DNA of 64,000 nt. Origin: Chromera velia. Its lineage: Eukaryota; Sar; Chromeraceae. Made by a program: the position numbers and the translations under genes. This document shows, piece after piece, positions 20,468 through 30,443 of the stretch. The stretch spans positions 10,001-74,000 of the forward strand of contig JAHBMJ010002314.1 in the NCBI GenBank assembly GCA_018398765.1. Direction: 5' to 3'. The notes beneath the pieces are model-generated. The model did no database searches and was not told the origin of the DNA. It saw only the letters and a program-made list of their open reading frames with translations. Within the stretch, counting starts at the first letter, position 1; every line of letters begins with the position of its first letter.

Positions 20468-22251
20468 GAAAGTCTGTCGGGAGGTGGAGAGGCAAGGGGC
20501 GCTTAACTCTCACCTTTCGGGCCCCCTGCCCACTTTGTCTGAGTTGTCGTGATGTTCTTTTGTCTTTGTTGTTTTGTTTCTTTTTGTCTATTGTGTTCAT
20601 AAAGAAAAGAAGGGAGAAGAAGAAGCATACTAGAGAAACATATAGTCTGTCTGTCTGTCTGTCTGTCTGTCTGAAAGGAAGCGAAAAAGTTAAAGTAAAG
20701 AAAAGACGATATAGTCTGTCAATCTGACCGTCTTTCTTTCTTTCTTTCTTTCTTTCTGTTTTTCTTTCTTACTGTTTTTCTTTCTTTCTTTCTTTCTTTC
20801 TTTCCTTCTTTCTTTCCTTCTTTCCTTCTTTTCTTCTTTCTTTCTTTCTTTCTTTGTTTGTTTCTTTGTTTCTTTGTTTGTTTCTTTCTTTCTTTCTTTC
20901 TTTCCTTCTTTCTGTCTTTCTGTCCGTCTGTCCTTCAGTCCGTCTGTCTGTTGAAGAAGAAACATACAGTCTGTCATCATATAGTCTGTCTGTCTGATTT
21001 TTTTTTTGAAACTGGAAAGAAGAAGGCAAAAAGAAGTCTCTTTGTTTGACATGTCGTCAGTCTGTCCGCCTGTCTGTTTGAAGGAGAGAGGGAAAAACAA
21101 CAATTCAGTCTGCCAGCTTGTCTGCCAGTCTAGGTAGACGAGAGAGGAGTTAGAGTAAAGCGATCAGGCTGCGTGGGCATCTCTCTCGTCCATCTCCCTG
21201 TTGTGTAGACGAAGGGAATAAGAGAGGCAAGAAAAAGGTACATAGAATCTGTCAGTCTACACACATGCAAGGGTGAATGAATGCCTGCGTATGTACTTGT
21301 GTACGTGTACGTGTTCATTCCATCCAATTGGATGTCTGTATGCAGGTCTGTCCAACTTGCCGTCTCTCTGCCTACTGCTCTCGGTCCTGTCAGATCCATC
21401 ACTGGACATTCACAGCAGTTGGTCAGGGCGGGTGCCATTCAGACTGGGAATCAGATACCGAGAGGGAGGGACAGACCGACACTGCAAAAACAACCTTCCC
21501 GAAAAAGGGTTCAGAAGAGAGGTGTGGGGAAAGAGAGGAAAAGGGGGAAAAGAACCCGAAAGAAGAGAAAGAGGAAGAAAACGATGATGACACTTCACCC
21601 CCAAGCCACAGGCTCTTCTGCATTCTGTTGAAGCACAACGTTTTGGACGTTCTGGAACATTTCTCGTGGAATCAGGTCCTCCGCCCAACCTTCAAAATCG
21701 TGTCTTCCACCTGCAGAGTCGGCTCTCATGACCGATTTCTCGTCGAACTCACTCGCCGGGTCACAGTCGAAGACACAGAGTCAAAGCCGATAACCACCTC
21801 CCCCCAGAAGTGCGGTGACGCCTGTGTCAACCGCAGTGGTTTTCCTCCCCCCTCTTTTGGGCCCTCTCCACCGTGCGGTGGGCCCTCTGAGGGCCCCGGC
21901 ATCCCCGAGTGCAGTCACGGGTCAAGCACCAGTGCATCGATCATGTCTCGTTCTGCCACCGACCAGAGTGTCGACTCCTGCATCCCCAATCCAGCAGATC
22001 CTCCGGCAAGTGTCGGCCAGAGTCAGCTAGCTGGGAGGGGACATTCAGACTTGGAGTTTGACAAGCACCTGGCTGCGATAATACGAGCACGGAGTCGACT
22101 CCAAACACTTCCTCTCGGCCGTTTTTCGCCTGTCTTGAAGCAGTCTGACAGCTCTGCTACTGCTCAATCATGCTCCGCATCAAACACAACAAAGAAGACC
22201 ACGCCTTTTAAAGACACAAGCAGTGAGACTGCGGAGAGAGAAGAAAAATGA
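18678..22251 (+). CDS. MYND-type zinc-finger protein
   Basis: A predicted ~795-residue protein ending in a MYND finger, usually a protein-interaction module in nuclear regulators. Exon 3 starts at 21346 after an 1095-nt intron (20251-21345, CAG|GTCCGC donor). Joining it to exon 2 assembles the finger from WCDAPKC, VCPTC, YCSRSC and IHHW, the classic Cys/His order, so the intron splits the MYND domain. The N-terminal ~550 residues are helical and unrecognised; I see no SET domain. The reading frame changes near 19340-19424. A short intron 19333-19423 (91 nt, GTTCGT..CAG) gives an open frame of 796 codons, but a frameshift or two genes cannot be excluded. The C-terminal 240 residues are Ser/Pro-rich and probably disordered. 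The long intron is packed with TCTG and TTTC microsatellites. Confidence 0.72.
20340..20935. repeat. large (TCTG)n and (TTTC)n microsatellite cluster
   Basis: TCTG/TCCG units run at 20341-20468, again at 20645-20676, then TTTC/TTCC units at about 20729-20925. All of it lies inside the intron that splits the MYND finger. Long lysine-rich frames on the minus strand here are translations of the repeat. Confidence 0.92.
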
Positions 22252-23830: not shown

Positions 23831-26800
23831 ATGTCACTGCTGTCTCTGGGAAAGGGGGTGTGGCGTCCTCGGCAGCTCTGTCTGAGGACCGCAGACAGAG
23901 CCTCGTCGTCTGTTGCTGTCTGCACAACCGCCCGTCTACGTGAGAATGAGCTAGACCAGAGAAGACAGGGTGGAAGGGCGTCTCAACAGCCGATGCAGAG
24001 ACCCAGCGTCAGACACAACGCCCCACACAGCACCAGCAGCAGCAAGCACAGCTCTGCTCCGTTCCCGAGAGGTGGCCCGAGGGAGTCGCCTCTTGACAGA
24101 GACGCCTGCATCCGAGTGAAAAGAGTGTACGTCAGTGTGAGACGGCCGGAGTGCAGGATAAATGAGAGCGTGGTTGGTGTGCACATCAATGTACATTCAG
24201 GGAAATGAATTGATGGTGGATAGGGTGTTTTCCCGTGTGTGTCGACATGCACACTTTCATGAGAACAAGACTTGAGGCCGGTTGGAAATGAAAGGGCCAG
24301 AGGAACGAGAGTAACCGCAATCCTACATTGAATGTGTTAATACACTGGTGTTTCTGCCTGTTGGTTTTATCTCTCATCCTCACCTTCTTTCTTGCCTGTG
24401 CGGAGTCTCTTTCCCTTGCACACTTCTTTGTAAATTCTCTCTGCCTGCAGAATAGCTGCGTGCTCGTCTGTCCAGGATCTCCACCAGATCGTCACAGAGC
24501 TAGTCACAGGAACATTTCAAGGAACAGGAAGGGGACCGGGAGAAGTGCAGCCCCAGGAGGAAGGAAAGGAAAGCAAGAGTGTGGCAAGGGGACAGGCACT
24601 GGATGTTCCGAATTGCATTTCGGCCCTGTCTGCGTTGGTTTACGTCCAGGAAGAGAACAAAGAGAGGGGGGGAAAGGGAAATGGGCGGGGGGAGAAGGAA
24701 GGGAAACGCCCTGGGGAGAGGGAGAGACGGAAAGGAGTGGAGGTGATGCAGATGCTTGTGGACGTTTTGTATCGATTCTGCCGTCAGTCTCTCGTTCGAA
24801 TTCGAAGGATTCCTCGAAAAAGCACTGCAAAGATGTTCTTGGCTACATGTTTTTCTGTTGGTGGCTCCAAAATGAAGAATAATCTTTGTTGATTACTGGA
24901 GGGACCTCTGGGTACCCTCTTTAAGCAGTTTGTATTTCTCTCGCTCTGAGGGCATGCCTGCCCCTTTTCTTGTCCTTTTTTGCATGCCCATCTGTTCGCT
25001 CTGCTGACGCACGCACGCTTCCTTTGTCGATCGATGTTCTCTTTGCGTGGCCTCTTCCTTTTATGTGGTGTTGGGGACAGTCCTTCTCTTCTCTACTTGC
25101 AGAGTGAAATCCCAAGAACGGACGCTCGAATCAGTGTTGTGCGTTTGAATAAGCTGTCTGCTTCTCCGCCCGTCCACTTTCCTTTCCCCCTTCTTCATGC
25201 CCTTCCTTCTGCTCGTTGACTTCATTGTCCTTGCGCTAGTCGTGCTTTGTAGCTCCTCTCTATTTGTTCTGCCTGCAGTGGAGTCAGAAGGCAAGCTCTC
25301 TCTGTACAAACCCCAAAACGTCTTCAAGGCCTCCCACGCCCTGGCCACACTCTCGACCAGACACTCAGAACAGCTGGGAGACGAGACACTCCAGAAAGTG
25401 TGTGCCTGTCTGAGGGCGATACAGGAGGGAGCCATTCCGATCTTAAGGAAATTTGACGCCCACCATCTCTCTATTTCCTGCTGGTCTGTTGCTACCGTGC
25501 AGACTCTGCTGCAACAGCGAGGACAGATCCGACAAGGAGCGGAGGGGTCAGAGTCAGGATCGGCAATCGATCCCAAGTTTTTCATACTGGTTGCTTCAGA
25601 GGTGTGCAGAGGAGGGGGGAGACGGCTGGAAGATTTCAAGTGGAAAAATTTAGCCAATCTCGTTTGGGCATTTGCACGGTGCGAGCAGCAGGCACCATTG
25701 TTATTTCAGTGCGTTGCTGACCACGCTATATCGATTTTGGAGAGGGAGAGGGCGGGGTTAGAGACGAAGGGATCACCCCTGACGTCTCCCCGAGAACGCT
25801 CTGGAACATCTTTGGAAGAGGAGTCGTTGACGATGTCGTCGATGTACCCGATGGACGCCTCCAACATTCTTTGGAGTTTTGCCTTTTTGAGAAGTGTTGA
25901 TTTGAGGTTGCTTGAGGCACTTTTGAGCTCTCAGCGAGTTTTGAGGGATGCAGAAAGGGGGTTTGTGAACTGGTCTGACTCCACTCTTGCTGGGGTCTGC
26001 TGGTCTATCGGCTTGTCAGGGGTGAAGAGGGAGCAAGCGGAATGCAGAGAAACGGATGAAGGGAGGGCTGCAGCGGCATGTGCTCGGTTTCTGGACTCTC
26101 TCACTGCATCTTCTGATCGCGTGAAAGCAGTTTCAGCAGGCCACTCGCTGTCCCACGTCGCTTGGGGTGCCTCGACGTTTGGATGTACTGTCAAGTCCTG
26201 TTTTTCGTTATTCAAGGGCATTTTAGAGAACACGTTGAGGCAAATGGAGGAGGATTCTGTCTTTGAGGGTGGGGGAAAGGGAAAGACCAAAATTCGAATG
26301 CAAGATGTGGGGGTGTTGCTGTGGTCCCTCATGAGAGCCGGGGCGCTTGCAGCCAAGTCAGAAGACTCGTGTCTGTTGGTATCTGAGTCGAGAGAAAGTT
26401 TCAGTTTGATTATTCGATTCCTGAATCGACACATGCGGGAGTGTACGGGGCAGGAGGTGGCCAGAGTGCTCTACTGTGTGAGCAGAAGCACAGACGAACC
26501 TCTGTCCTCTCTCGGGCTTGACTTTGCCCTCCTTGCGCAGAAGTTGAGGGGACTGCTGGGCAAAGAGGGAGGGGGAGACGGATTGGTTGGGTGGGAGGAT
26601 CGAAGGACGGGGGGAGCGTCTGTGTTCACACCTGCCGAGCTAACACAATTGGTTTGGGCACTAGGGTCGGGAGCGTCGCGTGGCTCCAGTGACCCAGAGC
26701 TTTATGGGACGACCCCTGTGCTTCCTCTGGATGTGCTTGAGGGTCTCTCTGGCAGTGCTTTGGAGTTGGTGAGGGGGGATGTGGAGTGTCGCTCGAATTT

Positions 26801-29484
26801 CGACAACTTTGTGGGTTTTGTTGATGGTCTGGTGGGGGGTATGGGGTATCGGTGTGACGAGTGGCTGGCGAGAATGGCCGAGGAAGCGGTGGCCTCGGGA
26901 GGCGAGAGAGAGAGGGAACGGCAGGCGGTGGGGGGAGATTTCGGTGTGTGTCTCGGAGGGAATCGGGGGAGGTTGGAAGAGGACGAGGCAGAGGCCGTTG
27001 GAGAGGGGGGCGCTGCGACAGATGGAGGAGAGTACAGACCCAGATGGGCATCTGTGGTGTCCTCCTCCTTTGTGGGGAGGGTGGGAGAGGGAGACCGGGG
27101 CAGGATGGAAAGGGACAGCAGAGAGGGAGACGGTCGGATAAGCAGAGTCCTGCAGCAGAAAGATCTTGAAGAAGAAGAGGATGACGAGGAGGAAGAAGCA
27201 GAGGAAGAGCAAACCGCAGTGTTTGGGAAAAAGCTGGAGGAGCCGAGGTAAGCTCAAGCTTTTTGGAAGATGTGGTGTGACCCCCAGAGAGAAAGCAAAA
27301 TTGTCCTTATGATCTGGATGGATGCGTCCTTCGCTTGTTTTTTAGATGACAGACGTGTGTCTCCGGCAAGTCCTCCCTTTATCACCTTTCTGCAATTGCA
27401 ACGAAACCTGACTGCCGAACCTACCTATCAGCTGCGTCATTGCTGGATAGACACGCACATACACACACACACGCACGCACGTACGGTGACAAACCGCTTA
27501 TGAACATTGTTCTTCGCCGTGAATGAATTGACTGATGCCCCCTTCTCGCCCCCCCCTCCGCAGGCTCCTGTACGAAGACGCTTCCCTGGCGGTGGTCTTC
27601 AAGCCTCCTGGCTGGACTGTGCACGATATCGCGTGGCGTAGCGTTGACGAGGCACTGGGGGCAGATGCGATCTTTCGGTCTGAGCTTCTCGGTGCGGGTC
27701 TTCTTGGACCGGACGGGGGTTTGGAGGAGACGGGGACAAGAAGGGGTCGGGTGATTGAAAGGATGCTGGAACCTTCTGTGAAGCCGTTGTTGAATGAATT
27801 TGTCGCACTGGTCAGTGGGACGTAGGTTTACATGCATCCTGGGCAGAGCGAGGAAGAGGGGTGTGTGCTTCTCCTTGGAATTTCTTAGACGGACAGAAGC
27901 GTGTAGATGAGCAAGTTTGGTATCCATAGAAGCACGATGAGTGAATGAGTGAGTGAGCGAGTGAGTGAGTGAGTGAGAGGGAGAGATTGTGTGCGCGAGT
28001 GCCTGTCTGCGTGTGAGCTTTCGGACTACTCTGCACATTGTTTGGGACTCGTTCCTGCCCACCCGGTGTTTTTAATTTGTCTTTACATATTCGAGAACCT
28101 GTGAGTGCTTCCGCACCTTGGATCGAAAAAACGACACCTCACTCCTTCCGTCCCTCCCTCTCGACTGTTTCCCCCCCAAGCAGAACTTCCCCTCCTTCGA
28201 CCTTGGCCTGAGACCCTCCTATGGCCATGGCGTGTGTCACCGTCTCGACCTGCCCACCTCTGGTCCTGTGGTGGTGGCAAAGAGCCTCGAGGCCTTCGTA
28301 TTCGTGCGGCTGATGTTCGCAGCAAAGAAGGCAAAAAAGGTTTGCATGTTTGGCAACACCAAGGGGGGGGTGGATGGAGGTGCTGCCTATCCGAGCCTCT
28401 TCATGTTGTTGAATCGATCGTTCTCTTTCTCTCTCTTTTGGTTTTTGTCTCCATTGCTGTTTCTTTCTGCCCCCCTGGCAACCCCTGCAGCCCTCATTCC
28501 TTCGTCCCGCCTTCTGCGGGCTCTCTGTCAGGGAAGGGAGGGTGCATGCCTCTTTTTCGTTCCGGATTCGGTCTGTGTGTTTGTGTCATTGAATTCTTTG
28601 CAGTCCTATGTCTGTCTTGTGAGAGGGCGACTGGAGGGGCCTGATCTCTCAGCTGATGGGGGCAGGGAAGGGGGGCGTCCCCAACCGACCTGGTTTCCCA
28701 TCAGTGCTCGTCTGAGGAAGATGAGGGACGTCCAAGGAAAAACATGCGTTAGAGTGGCCCCGAATGGCCGAAATGCGCTTACTGTCTGGAGGCCTGAGGG
28801 ACACTTCAGAGACCCCCTCACGGGCACAGAGTACACTCTCGTGAAGGTCCGACTGATCACAGGCCGCACCCATCAGATTCGGGCCCACCTTGCGCACATA
28901 GGCTTCCCTGTTGTGGGGGACCGCAGATACTCCGGCGGTCAAAATGGGACCACAACTCGGATGGAGGCAATCAGAGAGATTCAGTTCGAAGGAGACAGAG
29001 ACGGGGTCTGGCGGGTCGACTCAGGGCCAGACTCCTTTGGGCAGTGCATGGATGATGCGGTTGTTGAAAGAAGGGTAGGCGAACTCATTTGGGAAGGAGA
29101 GGGGAAAGAGAGGAGCCAAGAAAAGCGGCAGCAACAACAGCGCCAAGAGGCAGAATTGAATCCTGGGAGGGGGGGGTCGTTCTTTTCTCCTCCAGAAAGA
29201 GCCGCAGGATCCGAGGATGAGCATGCCGAGATTTGGTCAGTCACTCTTTCAGTCAGAACAACAAACAAGCGCGTTGCTTCCCTTTTTCTGATAGTTAAGT
29301 CTGCGGTGTGGCGGTGATTCATTCTTGAAGGTGAGTGATCTATCCGTCTACCCGCATGTATCCAGTGGCATCTAGAACGAAAACCAGTGAGGGAACGAAA
29401 CTGGACGAGGAAGAGCGACAGTTTAATGTACTTTCGCGCCTTTCTGCCCCCCCCCCAACTTTCCCTCCCTCTCGCTGTCTGTAC

Positions 29485-29517
<33 letters not shown>

Positions 29518-29867
29518 AAAGAGAGAGAGTCACTGACTGAGAGTGCGCGCGCCCATGCGCTCGCACCTGCGTGTGCATCCATGCCTTCGTCTCTTCAGAT
29601 ACGTGAATATCTTTATTGTTTGCTCTCTGACTTCTTTTCAGGTGTCCGCGTCTCTTTCTCCACTGCGACTCCTTGTCCCTCCCGTCTCTGGAAGAATTCA
29701 AGTCCCGGCGCTTGACTCAGCAGATGGGTCCAAATCGTACGCTGCGAGAATTCGAATCGGAAGTGAACGTCGAATCTCCGCTTCCTGCCGATCTTGAAAG
29801 AGCTTTATGTTACCTCGAGCCTGTCAGTCCGGGGCCTCCGGGCGTCAAAACGAACCAGAACCAATGA
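23831..29867 (+). CDS. heptatricopeptide-type helical-repeat protein fused to RluA-family RNA pseudouridine synthase
   Basis: A predicted organellar RNA-binding enzyme that isomerises uridine to pseudouridine. Exons: 23831-24126, 24451-~24860, 25279-27247, 27564-27810, 28184-28339, 28604-29235 and 29642-29867. From exon 3 onward all junctions keep frame; the exon 2 donor is unresolved. The N-terminus is Arg/Ser-rich with few acidic residues, like a mitochondrial presequence. Exons 2-3 carry about eight degenerate helical repeats with a conserved Trp (NLANLVWAFARC, ASNILWSFAF, LSHVAWGAST, VGVLLWSLMR, LTQLVWALGS), as in FASTK/RAP-type HPR proteins. An acidic linker joins them to the synthase: RLLYEDASLAVVFKPPGWTV, then HRLDLPTSG with the catalytic Asp, SYVCLVRG, TGRTHQIRAH and the C-terminal CPRLFLHC. 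The CCG-AG|G-CTC junction at 27247/27564 shows the fusion is one reading frame. I see no S4 domain or RAP domain. Confidence 0.88.
27934..27978. repeat. (GAGT)n microsatellite
   Basis: A run of GAGT units with one variant, in the intron downstream of the GTCAGT donor at 27811 of the pseudouridine synthase gene. Confidence 0.88.
29488..29515. repeat. (GT)n microsatellite
   Basis: About 14 GT units within the last intron (29236-29641) of the pseudouridine synthase gene. Confidence 0.92.
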
Positions 29868-29976: not shown

Positions 29977-30443
29977 CCCTACAGGTAGCTAGGATTTTGC
30001 GGGATTTTAGCTAGCCCAGGATTTTAGCGGATTTTACGGGATTTTGGCCAGGATTTTAGCAGATTTAGGCGGATTTTGCCCAGGATTCTGCCGGACTATT
30101 TCTCTAGGATTTTAGAATCTAAAATCCTGGCTCTAGGGATTATAAAGACTAAAATCCTGGATCCTAGGATTTTAGAAATGAATCCCACGATTTTATGGGA
30201 TTATATCTTTCCTGTAAAATCCCGTAAAATCCCGTATAGTTCCGTAAAATCCTAGGAAGAGGCTAGGATTTTAGCTTTCTTCCAGGATTTTAGATTCTAA
30301 AATCCTAGGTGTAGGGATTATATTTTTAACGTTAAGAGTCCGGCAGAATTCTGGGCAAAATCCGCTAAAATCCTGGCCAAAATCCTGTAAAATCTGCTAA
30401 AATCCTGGGCTAAAATCCTGCAAAATCCTGGCTATCTGCAGGG
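29977..30443. mobile_element. foldback (MITE-like) element with ~105-120 bp terminal inverted repeats
   Basis: The left end (from CCCTACAGGTAGC at 29977) and the reverse complement of the right end (CCCTGCAGATAGCC, ending 30443) align over about 105-120 bp. Identity is high and there are two small indels. Each arm is itself built from repeated GGATTTTAGC-like units. The ~230-bp centre holds two further near-perfect hairpins, AGGATTTTAGA with a 1-nt spacer and its complement. There is no coding capacity, so it would depend on a transposase elsewhere. I could not identify a convincing target-site duplication. Confidence 0.8.

Follow-up and report, generated by a model that had tools for sequence, protein, structure and literature searches.

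A stretch of 64,000 nucleotides from Chromera velia (contig JAHBMJ010002314.1, positions 10,001 to 74,000; "the window", in whose own numbering positions are given) carries at 23831-29867, on the forward strand, a predicted gene whose seven exons would encode 1311 residues with no internal stop codon and in which an array of HPR-type helical repeats precedes a pseudouridine synthase domain of the RluA type (Table 1). The original prediction, made from the letters alone, had placed a gene at these positions, joined its halves by a frame-preserving intron at 27248-27563 and described repeats with a conserved Trp, an acidic linker and a complete RluA core with HRLD and TGRTHQIR. Profiles and motifs confirmed all of these parts, and the coordinates proved right, the predicted intron having GT-AG borders and phase 2, with an open frame across the exons.

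All six introns are of the GT-AG type with compatible phases and CAG acceptors, the 30 bases preceding the AG are 67-83% pyrimidine, and in-frame stops occur in five of the six, intron 5 (28340-28603) having none. The intron between the HPR exon and the RluA core has the donor GAG/GTAAGC and the acceptor CCGCAG/G (slashes mark the splice points), and pyrimidines make up 83% of the last 30 bases upstream of its AG; the purine content is 0.726 in 27000-27247, 0.449 within the intron and 0.538 in exon 4. Intron 2 begins with a weak donor (GTGGCT), for which 24888 offers an alternative, and homology was looked for in exons 1 and 2 and not found, so the N-terminus is provisional. This N-terminus is mitochondrial-presequence-like, being basic and amphipathic and lacking a hydrophobic core: the first 60 residues have 11 basic residues (10 R, 1 K) and 4 acidic ones (2 D, 2 E), the hydrophobic moment is 0.55, and the top 11-residue Kyte-Doolittle mean within the first 40 residues is 1.14, composition and moment being crude measures taken on a provisional exon 1.

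Table 1. Features of the HPR-RluA gene, in window coordinates
Feature	Position	Strand	Content or basis
Start and stop codons	ATG 23831; TGA 29865-29867	+	Exon model translation
Exon 1 (provisional)	23831-24126	+	N-terminus MSLLSLGKGVWRPRQLCLRTADR..., basic and amphipathic, mitochondrial-presequence-like
Exon 2 (provisional)	24451-24860	+	No homology found
Exon 3	25279-27247	+	HPR array and acidic linker
HPR-type repeats	25452-26702	+	Trp/Tyr anchors at residues 304, 365, 434, 477, 531, 584, 634, 695; profile models
Acidic linker DLEEEEDDEEEEAEEEQ	27162-27212	+	Sequence; begins at residue 864
Intron between HPR exon and RluA core	27248-27563	+	316 nt, phase 2; TAA in frame at its start
In-frame ATG upstream of RluA exon, possible alternative start	27535-27537	+	Two codons past TGA at 27529
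Exon 4	27564-27810	+	RluA motif I (RLLYEDASLAVVFKPPGW)
Exon 5	28184-28339	+	RluA motif II HRLDLPTSG
HRLD	28238-28249	+	Presumed catalytic Asp codon 28247-28249
Exon 6	28604-29235	+	SYVCLV (presumed core Tyr) and TGRTHQIR
TGRTHQIR motif	28859-28882	+	Sequence
Exon 7	29642-29867	+	C-terminal RluA strand WCPRLFLHCDSLSLP, tail, TGA stop

The C-terminal half contains a complete RluA-type core with intact active-site motifs and is a predicted enzyme. PseudoU_synth_2 (PF00849) matches it with 68 bits against a cut-off of 26.8 (E 1.4e-18), TIGR00005 scores 101.5 bits (E 5.1e-29), under its own cut-off of 192.7, and sequence matches in the PDB include RluD (8.9e-12), RluC (1.8e-11), human RPUSD1 (9.9e-11), RluA (2.1e-9) and RPUSD4 (2.5e-5). 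Weaker PDB matches (E 0.058, 0.072 and 0.17) are to synthase-like proteins of kinetoplastid mitoribosome assembly, one of them named mt-LAF3. Motif I (KPPGW), HRLD, SYVCLV and TGRTHQIR are all present and are followed by a CPRLFLH strand in the last exon; in the RluA family the Asp of HRLD is the nucleophile, and the Tyr of SYVCLV is presumed to be the core Tyr. An S4 domain and a RAP domain were both rejected as components of the fusion protein, neither being among the three Pfam families listed for it at E up to 10.

The N-terminal half is, by sequence signature, a tandem array of HPR/OPR-like helical repeats with insertions between the units. This assignment comes from profile models run in both directions. 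A model of 37 positions was made of 37 segments taken from six frames with RAP matches in this genome (L027, L028, L029, L033, L036 and L044, the last with a RAP match short of the curated cut-off), the window contributing none of them; it scored the exon 3 frame at 32.9 bits, the sole one above 5 bits among the 379 window frames of at least 80 residues, and when the first 800 residues were shuffled 2000 times, no shuffle exceeded 12.5 bits. In the reverse direction, a model of the window's own eight repeats was run against 20 RAP frames, 4508 frames from the loci described below and the window, and 800 shuffles, the best of which gave 9.4 bits. Six of the 20 RAP frames were listed, five of them far above this level (L027 93.2, L033 38.3, L044 37.1, L036 35.7 and L028 34.8 bits) and the sixth weakly so (L029, 12.9 bits), and the same model returned 18.5 bits for C797 and 12.6 and 11.7 bits for C829, two of the paralogues introduced below. 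A profile of the eight window and six RAP repeats together matched RESC6 (1.1e-13), the ATP-synthase-associated subunit ASA2 (6.1e-8), mL115 (1e-6) and mL113 (0.0016) in the PDB. The HPR-type signal for which the original prediction had looked to profile searches was therefore found with both model directions and with the PDB profile. FAST_1 (Pfam) matches residues 422-454 at 15.3 bits against a cut-off of 27.4 (E 0.018); the domain set of a FASTK protein was not found, FAST_1 being below its cut-off and FAST_2 and RAP being absent from the three listed families.

The same genome offers more regular relatives of the array. RAP-domain matches exceed the cut-off in 18 of the 21 listed, and 28 RAP proteins are reported as predicted for Chromera velia (PMC8190603). 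With E values allowed up to 1, FAST_1 matches 12 contigs, four of which (C251, C3240, C355 and C326) also have RAP matches. The RAP protein of C251 (L027/L023) has an unusually regular array of near-identical 37-residue HPR repeats, and these match RESC6 (2.5e-15), mL115 (1.3e-12), RESC8 (1e-10), ASA2 (1.1e-7) and mL123 (1.1e-6) among solved structures, as well as designed Armadillo fusions (3.9e-11 and 3.5e-9). On C3240, FAST_1 matches recur beside a RAP match in the same 111-base steps as on C251.

The fusion recurs elsewhere in the assembly (177.8 Mb in 4040 contigs), which was the one eukaryotic genome covered by the searches. PF00849 has at least 17 matches in this genome, on at least 14 contigs, and 8-10 kb around those on the 13 other contigs were scanned, a span from which farther exons could escape; 4508 frames of at least 25 residues, window included, were scored with the RAP-derived model, the rest of the window and the ten contigs whose PF00849 loci gave no HPR signal serving as background. 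HPR frames were found on 4 of the 14 contigs (the window, C3849, C829 and C797), always on the RluA strand and ahead of, or joined to, the RluA start. Only eight of the 4508 frames exceeded 8 bits, all of them in these four loci (window 32.9; C3849 29.1; C797 24.4, 16.4 and 10.5; C829 21.3, 14.8 and 10.3); the next-best frame scored 7.0, and the other ten contigs had no frame above 8 bits within the 8-10 kb read. In C829 an HPR repeat, TLPNLLWSLANLS, and RluA motif I, PRVIAETPAFAVFFKPARW, lie in one open frame (L055, 4433-5890) with no stop between them. In C3849 an HPR frame of 1005 residues runs up to a GTACGT donor with the residues ESLWETPDLL, and VVYKPPGW opens the following exon, so that the RluA core seems, from the sequence, to begin inside the HPR frame; in C797 the HPR and RluA frames are separate. 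The catalytic Asp, the Tyr and GRTHQ are retained in all four loci, and the CPRLFLH strand is common to the window gene, C3849 and C829, with RLCLH in C797. The join in the window does not depend on its own intron alone, because the HPR-RluA layout recurs and is joined in one frame in C829 and apparently in C3849. The fusion reading of the original prediction is thus supported by the same architecture at three other loci, and the apparent presence of at least three further genes of this build suggests a small family of predicted enzymes that carry their own RNA-docking module. When the RluA pieces of C3849 and C829 were used as queries, no further complete member was found in the genome, and a fragment on C344 was matched. 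At L049, three tandem near-copies of an RluA motif-I exon start (CVQVVYKPPGWLVN) stand at about 6293, 6387 and 6482, and the last alone continues into a core.

In a tree of 33 rows (9 hand-joined Chromera sequences and 24 of 80 bacterial loci), the fusions cluster with C3623 and C988 into a group of six Chromera loci supported at 99/95; a branch that has the four fusions alone on one side is weakly supported (68/85). C3623 (L054) has another long N-terminal extension, a low-complexity frame of 1168 residues that runs into motif I without HPR signal. C988 starts near a contig end; the same exon also stands close to the end of C2251, where the 9 kb before it gave no HPR signal.

Two features lie outside the gene in the window. 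About 110 bases past the stop codon, 29977-30443 forms a 467-base fold-back with nested inverted arms of up to 55 nt and 95% complementarity, built of TAGGATTTTAG-like units, which looks like a small fold-back or miniature inverted-repeat transposable element (MITE)-type element. Upstream, the frame at 21277-22248 weakly matches a MYND finger, scoring 22.2 bits (E 1.5e-4) where the cut-off is 22.7.

From the sequence we infer RNA binding, organelle, target and activity, and we put the chances at about even that the gene encodes an organellar, probably mitochondrial, rRNA-directed pseudouridine synthase docked by its own array. The product would be a nucleus-encoded, probably mitochondrial, two-module enzyme. 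Its N-terminal HPR-type alpha-solenoid would bind a specific RNA in the organelle, the likeliest candidate being one of the fragments of mitochondrial large-subunit rRNA, and its RluA domain, held on the acidic-linker tether, would isomerise a uridine near the docking site. Because the three other loci repeat this layout but differ in their arrays, the genes may encode several synthases, each directed to its own RNA or site. In bacterial RluC and RluD an N-terminal S4 domain stands at the position held here by the array, and the RluA domain occupies the position that the C-terminal RAP domain has in many HPR proteins.

The mitochondrial rRNA-directed synthase is favoured because the rRNA of Chromera mitochondria is reported to be heavily fragmented (PMC9550989), the Toxoplasma mitoribosome is reported to include HPR and RAP proteins (PMC11652630), and FASTKD2 is reported to assist the modification of human mitochondrial 16S rRNA by RPUSD4 (PMC12687428). 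RPUSD3, RPUSD4, TRUB2, FASTKD2, NGRN and WBSCR16 have been described as one functional module (PMC5377769). FASTK proteins are regarded here as HPR-related because FAST_1 matches HPR arrays and because six human HPR proteins have been counted (PMC11079077), which are taken to be the FASTK family; by analogy, the Chromera fusions look like the FASTKD2-RPUSD4 partnership in cis. Both modules of the original prediction and their recurring layout thus stand, and its reading of the array as a guide towards fragmented mitochondrial rRNA stays reasonable, with the FASTKD2-RPUSD4 precedent helping; its word "programmable" goes too far for an HPR array, since a 2025 review describes the HPR RNA interaction code as not characterised (PMC12691811).

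Several observations weigh against this interpretation. The eight repeats are spaced irregularly, 43-69 residues apart, with insertions between the units and no clean 37-residue ladder; insertions that interrupt the 37-residue motif have also been noted in Plasmodium HPR-like proteins (PMC11079077). The model of the window repeats did not place the C3849 HPR frame among its best 40 rows and gave 13.3, 9.4 and 9.3 bits to frames of unknown meaning (L053:7331-7462, one in L054 and one in the window), so that its values for L029 and C829 must count as weak. Window repeats alone reached only ASA2 (3.8e-4) below E 0.01 in the PDB, with mL115 at 0.13; phmmer of the array against the PDB gave nothing meaningful (best E 1.7); the whole array run against its own genome returned, besides itself, only weak matches in C251 (E 0.067, the RAP-protein frame) and C1255 (E 0.096); and a single-sequence AlphaFold model, all helices with a mean predicted local distance difference test (pLDDT) score of 48.3, is unusable as a fold. 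On the side of the synthase, every NCBIfam equivalog cut-off was missed, the best scores being those of TruC (tRNA, 66.5 bits) and RluD (rRNA, 65.3 bits), and no substrate site can therefore be assigned from sequence. Among the paralogues, the C829 frame that holds motif I has a modest HPR score (10.3 bits), the RluA residues within the C3849 HPR frame were mostly recognised by eye, only the last three of them being covered when the joined piece was matched to Pfam, and C797 (L053) has HRYD for HRLD, GRTHQAR for GRTHQIR and a long branch. In C3623 and C988/C2251, which belong to this RluA clade, the 10 kb examined showed no HPR array; the reason may be loss of the array in two loci after a single fusion, or arrays that escaped detection.

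The chief rival, which we consider rather unlikely, holds that the RluA domain has been kept chiefly to bind RNA or to scaffold assembly, which would make the protein a mitoribosome assembly factor or an organiser of rRNA fragments in which catalysis is minor. It has a precedent in MAA2 of Chlamydomonas, a pseudouridine-synthase relative, perhaps still an enzyme, reported to assist trans-splicing independently of pseudouridine (PMC8394491), and the weak PDB matches that include mt-LAF3 and the reported residence of HPR proteins in the Toxoplasma mitoribosome (PMC11652630) are in keeping with it, whereas the retention of Asp, Tyr and GRTHQ in all four fusion loci, despite divergence elsewhere, argues for selection on the chemistry. 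It is also conceivable, though quite improbable in our estimate, that the architecture is right and mitochondrial rRNA wrong, the target being a plastid RNA, a tRNA or a cytosolic mRNA. Import into a complex plastid is expected to need a signal-peptide-like core, and the first 40 residues are without a hydrophobic one; the mitochondrial call, for its part, depends on crude N-terminal features of a provisional exon, and RluA-family enzymes modify tRNA as well as rRNA, the TruC and RluD scores lying far under cut-off. Chromera is photosynthetic (PMC4501334) and HPR proteins have been linked to apicoplasts as well as mitochondria (PMC11079077), but those of apicomplexans are described as mitochondrial (PMC11652630, PMC12691811). 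Two adjacent genes, an HPR protein ending at TAA 27249-27251, in frame straight after EEPR, and a separate RluA protein from ATG 27535, which lies in frame ten codons ahead of the RluA exon frame and follows a TGA by two codons, are very unlikely, since the TAA is part of a good donor, the ATG falls within the pyrimidine tract of a good acceptor, the phases agree, and three other loci likewise have the HPR part ahead of the RluA part, with a single frame in C829 and a core apparently within the HPR frame in C3849, although the modest HPR score of the C829 frame keeps the chance above zero.

The mitochondrial rRNA-directed synthase that we favour shares features with several known systems. Like the HPR/RAP proteins of Apicomplexa and Chromerida, it has Trp-anchored repeats, profile matches in both directions with RAP frames of its own genome and an N-terminal array followed by a C-terminal domain, but this domain is RluA instead of RAP and the repeats are irregular, with insertions. 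It has the complete catalytic core and motifs of RluA-family synthases (RluC, RluD, RPUSD1 and RPUSD4) and differs from them in having a long HPR array and no S4 match and in clustering with five other Chromera loci (99/95). PF3D7_0511500 (PFE0570w) of Plasmodium is another RluA-type protein. We know of no HPR fusion of MAA2. This Chlamydomonas protein is likewise a synthase-like protein on organellar RNA, with a role reported to be, unlike the one proposed here, independent of pseudouridine (PMC8394491). Human FASTKD2 and RPUSD4 likewise pair a FASTK (HPR-related) protein with an RluA synthase on mitochondrial large-subunit rRNA (PMC12687428, PMC5377769), as separate proteins, whereas in Chromera the two would form one polypeptide. 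Plant PPR-DYW editing factors offer an analogy of our own, a helical-repeat array with a C-terminal base-modifying domain (for DYW in editing, PMC13126933), in which enzyme and reaction are unrelated and the repeat family is different, and for HPR no RNA code is known.

Among the entries listed, no fusion of HPR, OPR or PPR repeats with a pseudouridine synthase was found in open-access titles and the beginnings of abstracts, and the word pseudouridine is absent from the main text of two family surveys (PMC8190603, PMC13126933) and of a review of dinoflagellate RNA-binding proteins (PMC12787238). The recurrence of HPR-RluA genes is an observation added here to the original prediction; as to the fusion itself, no earlier description was found within the literature covered. 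By analogy with H/ACA guides (RNA) and PPR-DYW proteins (editing), we tentatively suggest, as a possibility that falls short of an even chance, a family of array-guided pseudouridine synthases in which each HPR array would choose an organellar RNA site, perhaps to mark and assemble the pieces of fragmented mitochondrial rRNA. If the favoured reading is true, the partnership of FASTKD2 with RPUSD4, separate proteins in human mitochondria, would be contained in one polypeptide in Chromera, which would be independent evolutionary evidence that the partnership is direct. It would also make the targets of HPR arrays accessible to study, since the pseudouridine left beside the docking site could be mapped, and it would bear on the maturation of ribosomes with many rRNA fragments in the relatives of malaria parasites.

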